Assembly: GCA_030682405.1 (NCBI GenBank)
Contig: JAUXOF010000035.1
Coordinates: 1-40,565 of the forward strand
Length of the DNA stretch: 40,565 bases
DNA from: Thermodesulfovibrionales bacterium
GTDB lineage: Bacteria > Nitrospirota > Thermodesulfovibrionia > Thermodesulfovibrionales > JdFR-86
Direction of reading: 5' to 3'
Each line of letters begins with the position of its first letter. Position 1 is the first letter of the stretch. Positions 1,815 to 36,451 of the stretch are shown piece by piece. Below the pieces are notes generated by a model. That model saw only the letters and a program-made list of their open reading frames with translations, did not search any database and had not been told where the DNA came from. The translations under genes were made by a program, and so were the position numbers.

Positions 1815-2436
1815 GCACATCTTTAAAGATGGCAGTCATCGGAAGGTAGTTTCTGTCCATCCCTTCCTGAACTGCTTTAAAATATTCCGTTCGCTTTTTC
1901 CCTCTGATGCCCCAGAAATCAAGCGGTGGAAGGTTCGATTGAAAGGCCATTAAATCGGCAAGAAGACGTGCAACCCTGCCGTTGCCTTCCCTAAAGGGAT
2001 GGATGAGCACAAGCTCCACATGAACTGTGGCGATAGCTCTTGCCACTTCCTCAATGGTTTTGAAATCACATGGGGTGAATTCCTTGAGGGCTCCACGCTC
2101 AAAGTCCTTCATTAGACGCGGAATCTGTGCGGCACCGGCAAATGGGAAATCCCCCTTGCTGACATTGACATGGCGGTAATTGCCGGCCCAATCGTAAATG
2201 TCGCCAAGCCACACCTTATGGACACGGCATATATCTTTGGCGGTGAACTTGTGCTTAGCGGAATACATTCCGGCAAGTTTCCTTAGGGCTGCTTCTTTTG
2301 CCTCACCCTCTATCTTGTCCATCTCTCGCCTGCTCTTGATGCCGAGCTTGTTCTTGAGGACACACCTACGGGAGCCCGGTTCGTGCTGGGCCTCGATGAG
2401 TCCGGATGTGTCGTATTTAGGCGACTGTCTTGTCAT
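1762..2436 (-). CDS. Fic/DOC family protein (AMP-transferase type)
   Basis: 224 residues. The Fic signature HPFREGNGR is intact at residues 146-154; in this family the His deprotonates the target hydroxyl and the loop binds ATP phosphates for AMPylation. The N-terminus (KYDTSGLIEAQHEPGS, then a GIKSRREMD segment) is typical of cell-filamentation-type Fic proteins. The start overlaps the end of res by 20 bases, so translation is probably coupled, and the gene sits between res and mod in one operon. No clear N- or C-terminal inhibitory (S/T)xxxE(G/N) motif was seen, which points to class I with a separate antitoxin, here the convergent ORF at 1620-1814. Target unknown. Confidence 0.88.
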   Translation of the reverse strand: MTRQSPKYDTSGLIEAQHEPGSRRCVLKNKLGIKSRREMDKIEGEAKEAALRKLAGMYSAKHKFTAKDICRVHKVWLGDIYDWAGNYRHVNVSKGDFPFAGAAQIPRLMKDFERGALKEFTPCDFKTIEEVARAIATVHVELVLIHPFREGNGRVARLLADLMAFQSNLPPLDFWGIRGKKRTEYFKAVQEGMDRNYLPMTAIFKDVLRRTLKQRGERKASAAR

Positions 2437-5419
2437 CGGTCTCGAACAATTCGCCTTGTGTCAGCGCTTTCCGTATGGTATTTTTTGCATCCCACGGGTC
2501 GGTTATCTCTATAAAGCCCCACCTGCCGAACCCGCTGTGGTTATTCACCGCCGGTATCCAGAAGTTGCGGGCGGTGGCAACCTTAACCGCCTTGTCCTTC
2601 TTCTTCTCGCCCGTAACTTCAAGGATAAGGTTCACTGCCTCTCCGTCGGGGTTTTTAATGCAGACGATGAAGTCCGGGAAGTAGTTTTTCTCGTCGCCAT
2701 TGAGGAGATAAGGTATCGTAAAGTTCAAGCCTTGGTTCTTGACATATGAGACAACCTCGTCCATTTCTTCAAGGGCTTGAGACATCTTTTGCTCCCACGA
2801 GTCCGTGTCAGCCACCACATGAGAAATGTGGCACTTCTCCGGGCTTGCGGGATAGACGGGACGTATGGTATCGAAATCAACATATTTGGTGGAACCCACA
2901 GTGTCGTATGGGCGGAGGATTGGGAAGAGCCGTTTGGCTCCTCTCTCGCCGTCCGCGTGGACAATAGAAAGGTAAATCTTTTCGGCAGCCGCATGAGCAA
3001 ACTCGATTAGAAGCAGAAGCTGTGGGAAAGTGTTATCCGCGCAATAAAGGCATTTCCTCATCCACTCCTGCGATATACGAAGAATCTGGGGGAACAGCCA
3101 CGGTTTGGAATTGCCGTCGTCTCCTTGAAAATATTTCTCAAGCACGAGCTTGGAAAGAAGAAACGCAACCTCCTGCTCACGGTGAGCCTTGAGGTCGTCA
3201 AGGGTATGGATGCTCTTCTCCCCGATTATAGGGGCGTTTTCGGTCTTTGTGGGAATGTCCTGTGTGCTAAGGGACATTTTGGAATCATCCGTAAATGTTG
3301 CCTTAAGCGTTTCTGCCGGAAGTTCATAGCGGTAGCCGGTTATTCGCGGGAAGTTGATTTCAAGGGCAATCCGTTCAGGCAGGGAGCGAACACGGGTAGG
3401 CATCGGCCCCGGCTTAGGGTCTGTGGTTGAGCCGGAACAAGGAATAAACGAGAAGGGGACGCCGTAAACCTCGGCGTATTCGGGGTCAAATCTTCCTCCT
3501 TCATTAACCGAATAGCTCCTCCGGCGGAGTCCTCGACCCACCACCTGCTCACAGAGAAGTTGAGTGCCAAAGGCGCGAACGCCAAGGATATGAGTAACAG
3601 TATTTGCGTCCCATCCCTCGGTGAGCATAGAGACCGAGACAACGCATTTGACATGCTCGCCGAGTTTGCCTTGCTTGCCGACTGTGTTCATTACCTCGCG
3701 GAGCAGGTCTTCATCCGTGAGCTTATCGGTGTCTCTGCCGGGGAATCTCTTTCTATAGTCGGCTTTAAACTCCTCGATTTCATATTTGGCTATGTCTTTA
3801 AAATCCTTGCTCATCGCCTCGCCCGACTCCAACTGCTCCGAGTCAATTAAAATGGAATTCGGGCGGGCAGTCCATTGACCATCTTTGACGTTGCTGAATA
3901 TCTTGAACTTGCCGCCCACTATTGCGGTTGAACCGTCCTTCAGGGGCTTTTCCCACCCCGATACATGGTCATAGACAAGCTTAGAGACGTTTGTGTTATT
4001 ACAAACGACTATAAACACGGGCGGGGTTTGTCCCCGCGCCTGTGCTTCCGTATTTTCTTCCCATCGCCTGTAATACTTCTCGTAATTGCCGTAAAGGCTT
4101 TGTAACGCCCCTTCAAGCACGGCAGGCAACTTCGGTTCGCCGGATACCTCTTTTGTTTTTCTGCCCTTCTTTGGGAGGTCTTCCCGGATTCTGAGCCATA
4201 GGTCGCGGTATGTGGGCATTTCGCCTGTCATCGAATCGTCTGCCACTGGGACGCGGGGAACTTTAACGATGCCTGATTCGATGGCGTCAATAAGGGAAAA
4301 GTCGGACACGACCCAAGGGAAAAGCGTGCCTTCGGAATAGCCGGAACCGCGAAGGAAAAACGGTGTGGCAGAGAGGTCATATACGGCCCTTGCGCCTATC
4401 TTTGCCTTGACTGCCTCAAGCCCTGAAATCCAGACGCGGGCTTCCTCTTCCCGCTTCTCGGCTTCCTTTCTTTCGTCACCGGTTAGCTTTTCCTCTTCGT
4501 CACCCTGCCGTCTCCTGTAGCAATGGTGAGCCTCATCGTTTATAACAATGATATTCTTCTTGTTCCCAAGTTCCCGGCACACACGGCGCACCATCCGGTC
4601 GGGAGTTTCGGTGAAAGCGCCGCCGTTGCCCTGCTTCAAAATGCTCTTTGTAAGTTTCCCTGCCTGAACCGTCTCGCGGAGCTTGAAGGCATGGAAATTT
4701 GTGATAAGGATTTTCGCCTTTCCAAGCTCCGACATCATATCGGAAGAAAGAATGTCCCTCTGCCAGTAATAGTTCTGCGGGTCATTGGGGAGGAGCACTC
4801 TGAGTCTATCCCTGATGGTAATGCCCGGCGTAACAATAAGGAATGTATCAGAGAACCGGGCATCCTGTGAATTAGCCATTTTGTTCAGGGCCTGCCATGC
4901 GATAAGCATAGCCATGACCACGGTTTTTCCGCTTCCCGTTGCCATCTTTAGAGCAATGCGGAATAACTCGGGGTTTGCGTCCTGATTAAACTCCCTGAGC
5001 TTGTTTTCTATCCACGTATCCCCTTGTTTCTTGGCTACCTCGGTAATGTATATAACGGTTTCAAGCGCTTCTATTTGGCAAAAAAAAAGCTTCTTCTCGC
5101 GTTTTGGATTAGTCCAGTACTCTATGAGACGCGCCGTTGTCTTAGTGATTCCGCCATATCCCCCTTTGCGCCATTTCTCAACAGCCCGCCTGACATCGTT
5201 GATAAAACGGTTCTCCTCTATTCGGTCTTCTATCCATTCGGTTGCGATGACAAGCTGCTTTCCCTTCTTCTTCGACTTGGCTATGGGGACGAAATAGGAA
5301 CTCAGGCGGCGCTCTTCGACTACCTCGTTGGTAATCCCTTCGTTGGAGAATTTGAAATGACGTTTGGGCTCGTCGAAGGGCGAGTTGAGGATAGGATTTT
5401 CAATAATAATGTCTTTCAA
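2417..5419 (-). CDS. Restriction endonuclease, DEAD/DEAH helicase type (Res, BPTD_3080-like)
   Basis: 1000 residues. The N-terminus (ENPILNSPFDEPKRHF) is characteristic of BPTD_3080-type restriction enzymes. SF2 helicase motifs are in order: Walker A ATGSGKT at 160-166, DEAH at about 295-298, SAT at 350-352, and a motif VI-like VVGRGLRRR around 630. The C-terminal segment has YFPDFIV followed by LILEVTGEKK, which fits a PD-(D/E)xK nuclease fold, though the residue two after the Glu is Thr and the catalytic Lys may be one of the following lysines. The start is a TTG that overlaps the stop of an upstream 21-residue leader ORF. Predicted to translocate on and cut unmodified or foreign DNA together with the downstream methyltransferase. 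Confidence 0.9.
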   Translation of the reverse strand: MKDIIIENPILNSPFDEPKRHFKFSNEGITNEVVEERRLSSYFVPIAKSKKKGKQLVIATEWIEDRIEENRFINDVRRAVEKWRKGGYGGITKTTARLIEYWTNPKREKKLFFCQIEALETVIYITEVAKKQGDTWIENKLREFNQDANPELFRIALKMATGSGKTVVMAMLIAWQALNKMANSQDARFSDTFLIVTPGITIRDRLRVLLPNDPQNYYWQRDILSSDMMSELGKAKILITNFHAFKLRETVQAGKLTKSILKQGNGGAFTETPDRMVRRVCRELGNKKNIIVINDEAHHCYRRRQGDEEEKLTGDERKEAEKREEEARVWISGLEAVKAKIGARAVYDLSATPFFLRGSGYSEGTLFPWVVSDFSLIDAIESGIVKVPRVPVADDSMTGEMPTYRDLWLRIREDLPKKGRKTKEVSGEPKLPAVLEGALQSLYGNYEKYYRRWEENTEAQARGQTPPVFIVVCNNTNVSKLVYDHVSGWEKPLKDGSTAIVGGKFKIFSNVKDGQWTARPNSILIDSEQLESGEAMSKDFKDIAKYEIEEFKADYRKRFPGRDTDKLTDEDLLREVMNTVGKQGKLGEHVKCVVSVSMLTEGWDANTVTHILGVRAFGTQLLCEQVVGRGLRRRSYSVNEGGRFDPEYAEVYGVPFSFIPCSGSTTDPKPGPMPTRVRSLPERIALEINFPRITGYRYELPAETLKATFTDDSKMSLSTQDIPTKTENAPIIGEKSIHTLDDLKAHREQEVAFLLSKLVLEKYFQGDDGNSKPWLFPQILRISQEWMRKCLYCADNTFPQLLLLIEFAHAAAEKIYLSIVHADGERGAKRLFPILRPYDTVGSTKYVDFDTIRPVYPASPEKCHISHVVADTDSWEQKMSQALEEMDEVVSYVKNQGLNFTIPYLLNGDEKNYFPDFIVCIKNPDGEAVNLILEVTGEKKKDKAVKVATARNFWIPAVNNHSGFGRWGFIEITDPWDAKNTIRKALTQGELFETDDKTVA

Positions 5420-28596: not shown

Positions 28597-30057
28597 ATGT
28601 TATCCAACATAGACACGATGAGAATTGAAGCCTCTTCAAGACTTCATCCAACGAGAAAATCGGCATTGGGGCAATTCATGACTCCGAATTCAATTGCCGA
28701 GTTTATGGTTTCACTTTTCGATAAGCTCTATAACAATATTAGGTTATTGGATGCAGGAGCAGGGATAGGTTCACTTGCCCTTGCTTTTCTTGATAAGTCG
28801 TTTCCTAATGCATCCTCAATTCATATAGATGCGTGGGAAGTTGAGCAAATACTCTTGCCGTATTTGAAATCGAATTTGATTCATTATCAAAAAGAAGCCA
28901 TGCATAAAGGTTCACTTGTGCAGTTCAACATTCATGACGATGACTTTATTGAGAGTGCAGTCTTGAGCTTAGTAGCAAAAAGGAACAGTCATTACACTCA
29001 TTGCATTATTAATCCCCCATACAAAAAGATAAGCTCTGATTCAAAACATCGGTTTCTTTTGCGAAAAATAGGCATAGAAACTGTCAATCTCTATACGGCA
29101 TTCCTTGCTCTCTGTATACTTCTACTTCAAAGCAAAGGACAAATGGTTGCTATAGTACCACGCAGTTTTTGCAATGGAACGTACTATAAGCCGTTTAGAA
29201 GGTTTCTTCTTGAAACCTGCTGTATTTCTCATATTCATGTATTTGGATCAAGAAAAAAAGCGTTCAAAGACGAAGGAGTATTGCAGGAGAACATTATCAT
29301 TAAACTCATTAAGAATCATCCTCAATCAAAGATTAGAATATCCACGTCTCACGATGATAGCTTATCAGACTATAATGTTCGTGAGATTGAGGCTAACGAA
29401 GTAATAATGCAAAAAGAGTTTGATTTTTTTATCCACATACCAACAGAACCAAAGCCTGTCACAAATTCACCGCTTTTTGAGAATATTCTAAGTCAGATTT
29501 CACTTGGCGTGTCTACTGGACCAGTAGTTGATTTCAGGGTTAAAAAATACTGTTCTAATAAGCCCAATGGGAAATCCGTACCTTTGCTATATCCACAGCA
29601 TTTCTCCAATGGTGAGCTTACTCATCCTAAAGAAATAAAGAAGCCAAGTTGGATTACTGTAAACGCAGAAACAATTAAATGGTTGATGCCGAAAGGCTTC
29701 TATACTCTTGTGAAGCGTTTTTCTGCGAAGGAAGAAAAAAGGAGAATTGTTGCCTATGTTGTAAATCCGCATGAATTAGCAGGGGACTATTTTGGATTTG
29801 AAAATCATTTCAACGTATTTCATGTCAATAAGCATGAAATAGATGAGAACATGGCATATGGGCTTGCTTTATTTCTCAACTCATCCTTGGTCGATAACTA
29901 TTTTAGAACATTTTCAGGGCATACTCAGGTTAATGCAAATGATTTGCGTTTAATCAAATATCCAAGTAAACGATTATTGATGGAACTTGGCAGGAAGTAC
30001 AAACACAAAAAACTTACACAAAGCCAAATAGACCAAGCAATCTCTCAGCATGAGTAA
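28597..30057 (+). CDS. Adenine-specific DNA methyltransferase, BsuBI/PstI type
   Basis: 486 residues, near the ~500 of M.BsuBI/M.PstI. SAM motif I LLDAGAGIGSLALAFLD near residue 50 and catalytic motif IV NPPYKK near 140, the gamma-class N6-adenine order. The N-terminal SALGQFMTPNSIAEFM segment is typical of this family. The C-terminal half is the target-recognition part. Strikingly AT-rich, with a different codon style from dxs and surE on either side, so it is probably acquired. Overlaps the endonuclease start by 8 bases. Confidence 0.9.
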   Translation: MLSNIDTMRIEASSRLHPTRKSALGQFMTPNSIAEFMVSLFDKLYNNIRLLDAGAGIGSLALAFLDKSFPNASSIHIDAWEVEQILLPYLKSNLIHYQKEAMHKGSLVQFNIHDDDFIESAVLSLVAKRNSHYTHCIINPPYKKISSDSKHRFLLRKIGIETVNLYTAFLALCILLLQSKGQMVAIVPRSFCNGTYYKPFRRFLLETCCISHIHVFGSRKKAFKDEGVLQENIIIKLIKNHPQSKIRISTSHDDSLSDYNVREIEANEVIMQKEFDFFIHIPTEPKPVTNSPLFENILSQISLGVSTGPVVDFRVKKYCSNKPNGKSVPLLYPQHFSNGELTHPKEIKKPSWITVNAETIKWLMPKGFYTLVKRFSAKEEKRRIVAYVVNPHELAGDYFGFENHFNVFHVNKHEIDENMAYGLALFLNSSLVDNYFRTFSGHTQVNANDLRLIKYPSKRLLMELGRKYKHKKLTQSQIDQAISQHE

Positions 30058-30994
30058 AGAGAAGCGCATAGAAGAATCGCTAAACGTTCTAAATGACCTT
30101 GGAATGCCAAGAGCGCAGTTGAATGAGCGGAGTGCGCTTTGCCTCTTAGCATTATTGAACTTGCGACCTGACAAAGATTGGGCTTCGTCGGAAAATCCTC
30201 TTATCGGAATTACTCCGATTATGGATTGGAGCAGAGAGTTCTATGGAAAGCAATACGCACCGAATACAAGAGAAACCTTTCGCAGACAAACGATGCACCA
30301 ATTTATTCAAGCGGGTATTGCATTGTATAACCCAGATAAACCCGACAGACCAGTGAATAGCCCTCACGCTGTGTATCAGATAGAGCCGCAGCTATTAACC
30401 GTACTGAGACTATTTGGAACTCAAAGCTACAAAACGCATCTTGCCTCTTTTCTAAAAAAGCGACTTTCCTTGGCTGAGCAATATGCTAAGAAGAGAGAGA
30501 TGCTACAAATCCCTGTCAAAATAAACGGCAAATCGGAGATTCGGTTAAGTGCTGGGCATCATAGTCGGCTTATTGCAGCTATTATTGAAGAATTTGCCTC
30601 TCGGTTTGTTCCTGGCGGAATTCTGGTTTATGTAGGGGACACAGAGGATAAATTCGGATATTTTGATGATGCGCTGTTATCACGCCTTGGGGTACAAACG
30701 GACAACCACGGTAAAATGCCTGACATAGTGATTTATTTCCCTGACAAGAACTGGCTTCTTCTTGTAGAGGCTGTTACAAGCCATGGACCTATGGATGGGA
30801 AGCGACACCATGAACTGTCAAAGTTGTTTGAAAAATGTACTGCGGGTTTAGTCTTCGTATCTGCTTTTCCTGACAGAAAAACAATGAATAAATATCTTGA
30901 GGTCATAGCATGGGAGACGGAAGTATGGATAGCCGATAATCCAACACATCTAATTCATTTTAACGGGATACGATTCTTAGGTCCATACAAATGA
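30050..30994 (+). CDS. BsuBI/PstI-family type II restriction endonuclease
   Basis: 314 residues, the same length class as R.BsuBI (~316). The N-terminal winged-helix-like part begins LNVLNDLGMPRAQLNERSAL, followed by the family C-terminal domain: VYVGDTEDKFGYFD, HGKMPDIVIYF, WLLLVEAVTSHGPMDGKRHHEL, with Asp/Glu residues placed as in a PD-(D/E)xK nuclease. Enzymes of this family cut CTGCAG; whether this one does is inference. ATG overlaps the methyltransferase stop, so modification is translated first. Confidence 0.93.
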   Translation: MSKEKRIEESLNVLNDLGMPRAQLNERSALCLLALLNLRPDKDWASSENPLIGITPIMDWSREFYGKQYAPNTRETFRRQTMHQFIQAGIALYNPDKPDRPVNSPHAVYQIEPQLLTVLRLFGTQSYKTHLASFLKKRLSLAEQYAKKREMLQIPVKINGKSEIRLSAGHHSRLIAAIIEEFASRFVPGGILVYVGDTEDKFGYFDDALLSRLGVQTDNHGKMPDIVIYFPDKNWLLLVEAVTSHGPMDGKRHHELSKLFEKCTAGLVFVSAFPDRKTMNKYLEVIAWETEVWIADNPTHLIHFNGIRFLGPYK

Positions 30995-33796: not shown

Positions 33797-35359
33797 TTAC
33801 TTTGCATATTCGACGTATCTGGATTCCCGTATGACCGTAACCCTTATCTGGCCCGGATACGTCATCTCGGCCTCTATCTTCTTTGACAGCTCCTTGGATA
33901 TGTTCCACGCCATCTCGTCGCTTACCTCCTCGGGCTTCACTATAATCCTGACCTCTCTTCCGGCCTGAATCGCATAGCATTTCTCAACGCCCTTGTACGA
34001 CATGGCAAGCTGTTCGAGTTTCTCAAGCCGCTTGATATAGTTTTCGATGTTCTCGCTCCTCACCCCCGGCCTTGCAGCCGAGAGGGCATCCGCCGCAGCC
34101 ACAAGCGCGGCCTCAACAGTGGCAGGCTCTCCTTCGCCGTGATGAACGAGTATGGCGTTCATCACCTTGTCGTTTTCGCCGTGCTTTTTGGCAAGCTTTG
34201 CGCCTATATCCTGATGTGAGCCTTCAACCTCATGGTCCACCGCCTTGCCTATGTCGTGCAGGAGCCCGGCCCTTTTTGCAAGCTTGACGTCCACCCCCAG
34301 TTCCCCTGCCATCATCCCGGCAAGGTATGCCACCTCCCTTGAATGCTGAAGCACGTTCTGGCCGTACGACGTCCTGTATTTCAGCCTCCCTACGAGCTTT
34401 ACAAGCTCCGGATGGATTCCCGAAAGCCCTACGTCAAAGACCGCCTTTTCCCCTTCCTCGATTATGGTCGCATCTACATCTCTTCTGACCTTCTCCACTA
34501 TTTCCTCTATCCTGGCCGGGTGAATCCTGCCGTCCGTTATCAGCCTTTCGAGGGAAAGCCTTGCGACCTCCCTCCTTACAGGGTCAAAACCCGAAAGCGT
34601 GACAAGCTCCGGCGTGTCATCGACAATGAGGTCAACCCCTGTTGCGGCCTCAAGCGCCCTGATGTTCCTGCCTTCCCTTCCGATAATCCTACCCTTCATC
34701 TCGTCATTGGGGATGCTTACGGCCGTCACCGTGGCATCGCTGGCGTAGTCGCTGGCATAGCGCTGTATGGCAAGGCTTAAGACCTCGGTGGCCTTCTTGT
34801 ATGCCGCCTCCTTCGCCTCATCCTCTATCCTCTTTGCCAGCTTGATGGACTCAAATCGGGACTCCTCCTCAACCCTTCTCTGGAGTTCGGCCTTTGCCTC
34901 CTCCGAGCTGACCCCGGAAAGCCTTTCAAGCGTCAAGGTCTGCTCCTTGACAAGCTGCTTGGCCTCTGCGTCCCTTTCGCTTAAAGAGCGCTCTTTTGAA
35001 CTAAATTCCTTTTCTTTCCTTGAAAATTCCTGTTCCTTTCTTTCCATCTGGTCGGACTTCTTTTCGATGGCCTCCTCTTTCTGCCTCAGGCGCTTCTCAA
35101 GGTGGTTGAGTTCATGACGCTTTTCCTTTAACTCCTTCTCCGCCTCAGCCTTTGCCTGAAAAACCGTGTCCTTGGCCTCGACAGCCGCCTCTTTTTTGAC
35201 GATGGCAGCCGCTTTCTGCGCCTCTTCCATGGCGGCCTTAAACTCTTTTTCAACCGCTTCCCTTTTGGACTTCAAAGAGGCCCTGTATGCCAGACCGAGG
35301 ACTACCCCTAATGCAACGCCGATACCTATTGACAGCAGTACATAAACCGCATCGGGCAT
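33797..35359 (-). CDS. rny: Ribonuclease Y
   Basis: 520 residues. Membrane-anchored endoribonuclease that starts mRNA decay. N-terminal anchor ([20 protein letters not shown]), long Lys/Glu coiled coil (30-190), KH domain ([20 protein letters not shown]), then HD domain with [17 protein letters not shown] at 35359 behind GGGAGG. Its leader carries two strong hairpins and lies just downstream of a 6S RNA. Confidence 0.97.
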
Positions 35360-35451
35360 TGGAATACCTCCCTTACGAAATAAATTAGGCAGGGGACAGA
35401 TTTGCTTGTTACAGGTTAGGTTGAGGGCGGTATCTTCTGTTGAGGGATATC

Positions 35452-35518
35452 GCGGGTGCAGGCCTTAAGCACCCGCTTATCGGGTCATTAACCTGTTCTC
35501 TTTTATGGTAATTGACCC
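35452..35518 (-). other. Two stable hairpins in the rny leader
   Basis: First: GCGGGTGC / GCACCCGC (35452-35459, 35469-35476), loop 9. Second: GGGTCATTAACC (35482-35493) with GGTAATTGACCC (35507-35518), 10 of 12 pairs, loop 13. They lie between the 6S RNA and the rny ribosome site and have no T run. May be a structured leader, for example a site for RNase Y autoregulation, or part of a second small RNA. Confidence 0.5.
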
Positions 35519-35612
35519 GTATATCTTTCATAAAAAGAGTCACCCGCCGCTCTAACGGCATTACAGCGCTCTTGCTCAACAGAAATGGAATTGCCTCCAA
35601 AACCCGGTAAAT

Positions 35613-35809
35613 TAAAAGCCCGCCCTGCCGTGCGAGTGAATAATCAGATCCGCCTGTCCGACAGGTGGGTGCCCTGAAGGGGACTTCAGGCTTTCCTCTT
35701 TTTGAGAGGACATGCTCACCGTCCCGCTTACGCAAGCTCCCTAAAGATCTAATTTGCTGGATCAACATTTTCACCCATCACAAACAGGGCAGGCAATCTG
35801 TCCTGCCTT
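35613..35809 (-). ncRNA. ssrS: 6S RNA
   Basis: About 197 nt on the minus strand. The apical part matches 6S RNA: GGTGAGCATG (complement of 35711-35720), a CCTCT/AGAGG hairpin, then AAGCCTGAAG, closely like E. coli GGUGAGCAUG-hairpin-AAGCCUUAAA, enclosed by GGGAC/GTCCC. Outward: a bubble with a hairpin on its 3' side (CCTGTCGGACAGG), a 9-bp stem AATTAGATC/GATCTGATT, and a closing stem GCCTGCCCTG (35785-35794) with CAGGGCGGGC (35618-35627) before TTTT. 6S mimics an open promoter and holds sigma-70 polymerase. It lies upstream of rny, a known context in related phyla. Ends are estimated. Confidence 0.75.
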
Positions 35810-35815
35810 ATTCTA

Positions 35816-35844
35816 TTTATACCAGAAAAGGCCTTTTAAAGCAA
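35816..35844 (-). promoter_or_regulatory. Promoter of the 6S RNA
   Basis: On the minus strand TTGCTT (complement of 35839-35844), 17-base spacer, TATAAA (complement of 35816-35821). Predicted start near 35809, at the 5' end of the folded RNA. Confidence 0.65.
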
Positions 35845-35887: not shown

Positions 35888-36451
35888 ATGTTATCTTTAG
35901 GGATGCTGAAATCCGACAGGTGGATAAAAGACAAGGCACAGGCCGGCATGATAACTCCCTTTGAGGATTCCCGCCTCATAAAAGGCGTCATCTCATTCGG
36001 CGTAAGCTCTTACGGCTATGACATGCGGATTTCAGATGAGTTTAAGATATTCTCAGCGCCGGCTTCTTCGGTCGTTGACCCGAAAGGCATGGGGCCGGAG
36101 AATTTTATCGATTTTAAAGGGGATATCTGCATAATCCCGCCGAACTCCTTCGCTCTGGGTCGGTCGGTAGAGTATCTTAAGATTCCGAGGGATGTGCTTG
36201 CCCTGTGCTTCGGGAAATCCACCTATGCACGGTGCGGCATAGTTGTAAATGTCACCCCCCTTGAGCCGGAATGGGAAGGACATGTCACAATATCGGTTTC
36301 AAATACGTCCCCCCTGCCCGCAAAGATATACTCAGGAGAAGGCATTGCCCAAGTTGTATTCCTCGGGGCCGGAGCGCTCTGCGAGACCTCATATGCGGAT
36401 AAATCCGGCAAATATCAGGCGCAGGCTGGAATAACCCTTTCAAAGACATGA
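35888..36451 (+). CDS. dcd: dCTP deaminase
   Basis: 187 residues. Deaminates dCTP to dUTP for dTMP synthesis. Motifs: [67 protein letters not shown]-type core (split: GKSTYARCG, then [12 protein letters not shown]) with the catalytic Glu, and [12 protein letters not shown]. Either the ATG at 35888 or that at 35903 could be used; most relatives start at the second, and neither has a good ribosome site. Overlaps pyrF. Confidence 0.95.

Follow-up and report, generated by a model that had tools for sequence, protein, structure and literature searches.

The window, i.e., the whole stretch of 40,565 nt that was analysed, carries three matches at the curated cut-offs of Rfam: two tRNAs and one 6S RNA. 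6S RNA is a bacterial small RNA that restrains RNA polymerase. Its gene in the window (ssrS, canonical copy) is located on the minus strand (35613-35798). Downstream of it lies rny on the same strand (33797-35359; RNase Y, with RNase_Y_N, KH_1 and HD domains), itself followed by a YmdB-like gene. Upstream lies the divergent dcd gene (35888-36451, plus strand; dCTP deaminase-like, Pfam DCD). A 121-aa open reading frame on the minus strand (35409-35774) overlaps the 6S gene and has no Pfam match.

The window also contains a restriction-modification pair (28597-30994), made of an Eco57I-type methylase and a BsuBI/PstI-type endonuclease. A large protein encoded on the minus strand (2417-5419) combines a ResIII domain with a weak match to an endonuclease domain, which does not reach the cut-off of the latter; it is perhaps part of a second restriction system.

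Identity and structure of the canonical 6S gene

The Rfam 6S model (RF00013) matches the minus strand from 35798 to 35613 over its full length (model positions 1-187 of 187), with 83.9 bits against a cut-off of 46.4 and an E-value of 2.8e-15. Membership of the 6S family, proposed in the initial annotation together with a covariance-model search as the check, is established by this score. It is the single RF00013 match at E ≤0.001 in the host genome (2,025,020 bases, 87 contigs). The predicted fold beats 200 of 200 dinucleotide shuffles (z = −4.95).

The structural elements described in the initial annotation are all found at their places on the minus strand: (i) the apical GGTGAGCATG-hairpin-AAGCC (35689-35720), read directly and aligned to the Rfam consensus, with GGTGAGCATG at 35720-35711 and AAGCC at 35693-35689; (ii) the closing stem, 35797-35780 paired with 35631-35615 in the Rfam alignment; (iii) the hairpin CCTGTCGGACAGG (35653-35665), located on the 3' side of the bubble, read directly and present in the predicted fold. 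The copy of the window shares with 6S RNA/SsrS (RF00013) the full length, the closing and apical stems, the central bubble and the conserved motif at the apex, and it differs in nothing essential.

The comparison set consists of the host genome and 60 relatives, i.e., 61 genomes from 13 families of the order. RF00013 matches at E ≤0.001 are present in all 61, and matches over the cut-off in 60. The number of canonical loci is 59: in two genomes of one genus (G011 and G033) the only match belongs to another class, and G010 is represented by its L042 match. The latter (L042, 3210-3469) is a canonical 6S of 260 nt, the apical arm of which is about 70 nt above the usual length. The canonical alignment (A6) contains 54 of the 59 sequences; L042, L056, L070, L077 and L078 were left out. 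In its consensus fold, 15 of 30 pairs have kept changes on both sides, and closing stem, central bubble and apical stem are supported by covariation. GGG of GGGAGC and CCCAC of ACCCAC are invariant among the 54 sequences.

The same-strand gene downstream, and the closing stems that are common in leaders, would also suit two other readings: a 5' untranslated region with a structure of its own, or a hairpin that is similar to 6S but unrelated to it. Either is very improbable given that the full-length Rfam match far exceeds the cut-off, that the GGG and CCCAC blocks are invariant and that 6S identity is kept where the next gene is rarA instead of rny. A decayed, unexpressed 6S gene has a next to negligible probability, since the closing and apical stems, the bubble and the promoter sequence are all intact and the genome, estimated to be 99.77% complete, has no other RF00013 match. 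On the basis of the sequence, the window is considered to encode an ordinary canonical 6S RNA, i.e., a further well-supported 6S gene, from a Nitrospirota genome that probably belongs to Thermodesulfovibrionales.

Promoter sequence, probable 3' end and gene order

The 6S promoter is supported by cross-locus comparison. Its −35 element is TTGCTT (35839-35844, minus) and its extended −10 element is TGGTATAAA (35816-35824, minus), with a spacer of 17 nt; transcription would start near 35809. At 50 of the 59 canonical loci, the 90 nt upstream contain TGnTATA. The full pattern [TTG(A/C), 15-20 nt, TGnTATA] is kept at 47 of 59 loci vs. 69 of 11,800 random windows (0.6%). It is missing at 12 loci, including all five of family f10 and both of f8. 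A promoter scan of the window alone is not above chance (one found vs. 0.9 expected from shuffles), and its one match is an overlapping alternative, TTAAAA/TAGAAT. The earlier proposal of an own promoter is thus supported because the promoter sequence is conserved across relatives, a conservation that is established, and not by the scan of the single stretch.

The closing stem is followed by a terminator-like T-rich tail, CTTTTAATTT (35609-35618, minus), that the terminator scan also lists. Of the 59 loci, 35 have five or more T among the 10 nt past the closing stem, vs. 11.8% of random 10-mers. Such a tail is as expected for an intrinsic terminator; in the copy of the window it is interrupted.

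The gene order was compared at the 59 canonical loci. A same-strand rny lies downstream of 6S at 58 of them, and at the remaining one (in G036) the contig ends. The divergent dcd is found at 5 of 6 loci of f1 (the f labels denote families) and at 6 of 6 loci of f4. The distance between 6S and rny ranges from 104 to 1816 nt (253 nt in the window), and 16 of the 59 loci have a rarA match in between: 3 of 6 in f3, 2 of 2 in f6, 4 of 4 in f7, 2 of 2 in f8, 4 of 5 in f13 and the single locus of f11. Each of three intervening RarA proteins that were scanned has an MgsA_C domain. It must be noted that the gap at the f11 locus (L022, in G015) is of 509 nt, with room for part of a gene only; its rarA match is perhaps the remnant of a lost rarA. 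In the window, the gap contains two strong inverted repeats (35452-35519), CGGGTCAATTACC/GGTTAATGACCCG and GCGGGTGC/GCACCCGC, without a T-run.

Downstream of 6S, genomes of this order have either rny itself or rarA followed by rny; E. coli has zapA and fau. In lactic acid bacteria, the 6S gene also has rarA as a conserved neighbour, which lies upstream of it (PMC8414754), whereas in this order it lies, where present, downstream, between 6S and rny.

The initial annotation had also proposed that read-through into rny links 6S to mRNA decay. In its full form, 6S would head a joint 6S-rny transcript as its leader, and polymerase sequestration would be coupled by read-through to the supply of RNase Y. 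Such a transcript would agree with the same-strand rny at 58 of 59 loci, 253 nt away in the window, with the interrupted T-rich tail of this copy and with the result of the promoter scan, which shows no separate promoter in the gap. It is nevertheless improbable: the gap is variable (104 to 1816 nt), a rarA match intervenes at 16 of 59 loci and 35 of 59 have the T-rich tail after the stem, vs. 11.8% of random 10-mers. The link to mRNA decay is unsupported because of these last two observations, and read-through from 6S into rny is possible but not favoured. As the order of 6S and rny is conserved while the gap is variable and has a rarA match at 16 loci, the order alone is no argument for a 6S-rny circuit. 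The position of rny downstream of 6S is most simply an inherited gene order.

Alternative pairings and proposed mode of action

Two segments on the 5' side, GTTGATCC and AATTAGATC (35746-35766, minus), are each able to pair with the same 3' segment (35642-35651). The two helices are mutually exclusive, and the predicted fold uses the second one, AATTAGATC. Among the 54 canonical sequences, pairing is kept in 91.2% of cells for GTTGATCC and in 86.6% for AATTAGATC, and the conservation of both alternatives is thereby established. The covariation scores are above those of 493 of 500 shuffles for the first helix and of 500 of 500 for the second. When the partner is slid by 1-3 columns, both paired cells and covariation score drop for both helices. 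The number of double changes does not drop in every case: at slide +3, the second helix has 23 double-change cells vs. 18 in the true register. The number of pairs changed on both sides is reached by 44 of 500 shuffles for the first helix and by 77 of 500 for the second, these pair-count structures (like that of the 16S-upstream alignment, see below) being derived from, or chosen on, the same alignments.

PMC8876501 reports refolding induced by product RNA (pRNA) in B. subtilis 6S-1 and in E. coli 6S. The pair of alternative helices resembles this. As with the central bubble collapse helix of B. subtilis 6S-1, an alternative pairing would close the bubble after product RNA synthesis. The difference is that the 5' bubble strand could here pair with the 3' strand of the bubble-adjacent stem. 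By analogy, the two helices may represent the bound and the released states of 6S.

The window almost certainly encodes a canonical 6S RNA with its own housekeeping-type promoter and a bubble hairpin that would occupy the polymerase until release by a product RNA. Polymerase binding, product RNA, release and transcript ends are those that the known family would predict. 6S would be transcribed leftward from its promoter, its transcript ending at or near the T-rich stretch past the closing stem. It would fold into a long hairpin, the central bubble of which imitates an open promoter and would occupy the polymerase carrying the housekeeping sigma factor. The polymerase would then copy a short product RNA off the 5' side of the bubble, leading to release, and the 3' arm would pair instead with the 5' bubble strand.

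6S-like RNAs upstream of 16S rRNA and elsewhere

A second kind of 6S-like RNA, first met as weaker second RF00013 matches, lies directly upstream of 16S rRNA in relatives. There are 27 such copies, in 27 of the 61 genomes, e.g., L083 (G016, a complete genome), L163 (G003), L079 (G011) and L080 (G033). The carriers belong to at least 8 of the 13 families (f1, f2, f4, f5, f7, f8, f10 and f12). Among the six genomes of the host's own family, the element is clear in G003 and degenerate in G001. In 25 of the 26 copies examined (G051 aside), a 16S start is found −5 to 162 nt past the element; in G041 and G051 the contig ends before any 16S start. A boxA-like sequence is present between the element and 16S in 25 of 26 copies, and upstream of the element in 16 of 26.

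Most copies keep the closing stem, the bubble, a GGGAGCC/GGCACCC pairing and, at the apex, AAGCC together with a GGTGNGCA-like motif. In the 16S-upstream alignment (A5; 22 of 27 copies, those of G001, G008, G031, G049 and G051 being left out), 18 of 33 pairs are changed on both sides, with support for closing stem, bubble and apical stem. The covariation value is 0.375 vs. 0.233 for shuffled alignments, and 0 of 500 shuffles reach it. Twelve of the 27 loci served to build a covariance model, R1, so that their own high scores with it are expected. With RF00013, four copies are over the cut-off (G011, G023, G033 and G060; 47.5-51.2 bits) and nine below it; the other 14 were found by R1 only.

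A tree of 102 6S-like RNAs (quick maximum likelihood without bootstrap and with a long-branch warning) separates the 59 canonical sequences from the 43 others with 99% support. In this tree, 22 of the 26 16S-upstream copies are grouped together (96%); the remaining four, which all come from f4, are apart. The tree has no outgroup, long branches and no bootstrap, thus the direction of duplication is not read from it. The structure and position of this 16S-upstream paralogue of canonical 6S are well supported.

The distribution of the element among 16S starts rests on R1 matches, so that degenerate copies may be missed. A pattern search with one mismatch allowed located 63 16S starts in 44 of the 61 genomes, and 24 of the 63 are preceded by the element. 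Among the 19 genomes with two 16S starts, the element is found at exactly one of them in 14, at both in none and at neither in 5. Among the 25 genomes with one start, 10 have the element and 15, including the host genome, are without it. With 14 marks distributed randomly over 38 starts, the probability that no genome is marked twice would be about 0.02, a value obtained by hand arithmetic that is descriptive, the genomes being related.

In the host genome, the R1 search finds the canonical copy and no 16S-upstream copy, a second, unassembled operon being possible. The one 16S start found there has a short plain leader without the element; this 16S is a fragment at a contig end that the Rfam 16S search missed. 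In G011 and G033, a search with the Rfam 6S model at E up to 1 finds no 6S other than the 16S-upstream copy, and the 10-11 kb around rny contain none at this threshold. The 16S-upstream copy may thus be the only 6S of this genus; the genomes are estimated to be complete, with assembly gaps possible.

A strict sigma-70-like pattern is present upstream of only 7 of the 26 16S-upstream copies, which points to transcription from the rRNA promoter; the copy would thus be transcribed together with the rRNA. It is also possible that it is made as a separate transcript.

Just before the 16S-upstream copy, a hairpin, often followed by a T-run, is seen at L201, L199, L198, L163 and L111, as a possible terminator. 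Compared with 100 plain shuffles, it stands out at 13 of the 26 loci (z below −2), and no conclusion is built on it.

The search was extended to 295 genomes of the phylum. Of 11 further strong-match loci inspected, nine have a downstream 16S start; three of these (in G190, G214 and G282) are outside the order and in the same taxonomic class. G079 and G101, which are outside this taxonomic class, have strong R1 matches with no 16S start nearby and look free-standing, thus this class of RNA is not restricted to rRNA operons. Among named genomes, a pattern scan gave 24 stretches; in 15 of them, a 16S start follows the element at 76-193 nt, the distance being taken from the pattern end. L175 has a model match and no 16S start. 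Eight pattern matches without R1 match (Nostoc, Deltaproteobacteria, Boudabousia, Geobacteraceae, Ruegeria, Acinetobacter, Brevundimonas and Myxococcales) were dropped as chance. The pattern recovers 13 of the 27 known loci, so the scan probably misses about half.

A third class consists of free-standing 6S-like RNAs with a promoter-like region upstream (L032, L039, L041, L045, L046 and L154). In 9 of 13 copies, examined by eye, a 3' domain is closed by a GGAGCC/GGCTCC-like stem. With a model R2, 12 genomes are above 73 bits, 8 of which are the set used to build it. Two more pairs of 6S-like RNAs have 99-100% support in the tree: L152 and L153 (G044 and G053), and L156 and L162 (G021 and G041).

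More than one 6S-like RNA per genome is also seen in Firmicutes, with B. subtilis 6S-2 and other second copies (PMC8414754). In contrast with these, the second copies of this order are directly upstream of 16S or free-standing, often with an extra 3' domain. Among the literature matches listed (titles and abstract openings, with few subscription journals), no description of a 6S RNA in an rRNA leader was found.

The structure of the 16S-upstream copies, their position and their presence at one of two 16S starts are observed features; transcription with the rRNA, release and feedback belong to a proposed mechanism. A paralogous full-length 6S would lie in the leader of one of two rRNA operons and be freed during processing of the pre-rRNA. 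Each round of transcription of the marked operon would also make a polymerase-sequestering RNA, and ribosome synthesis would thereby limit its own polymerase supply. This proposal, made from sequence comparison, stands at about an even chance.

In E. coli, the 6S gene is separate from the rRNA genes. For specialists, the surprising part is probably the 6S-like RNA before 16S, beyond the ordinary canonical 6S of the window. Should it belong to the rRNA transcript, the long-standing question of the balance of polymerase sequestration vs. ribosome synthesis would be testable at one locus.
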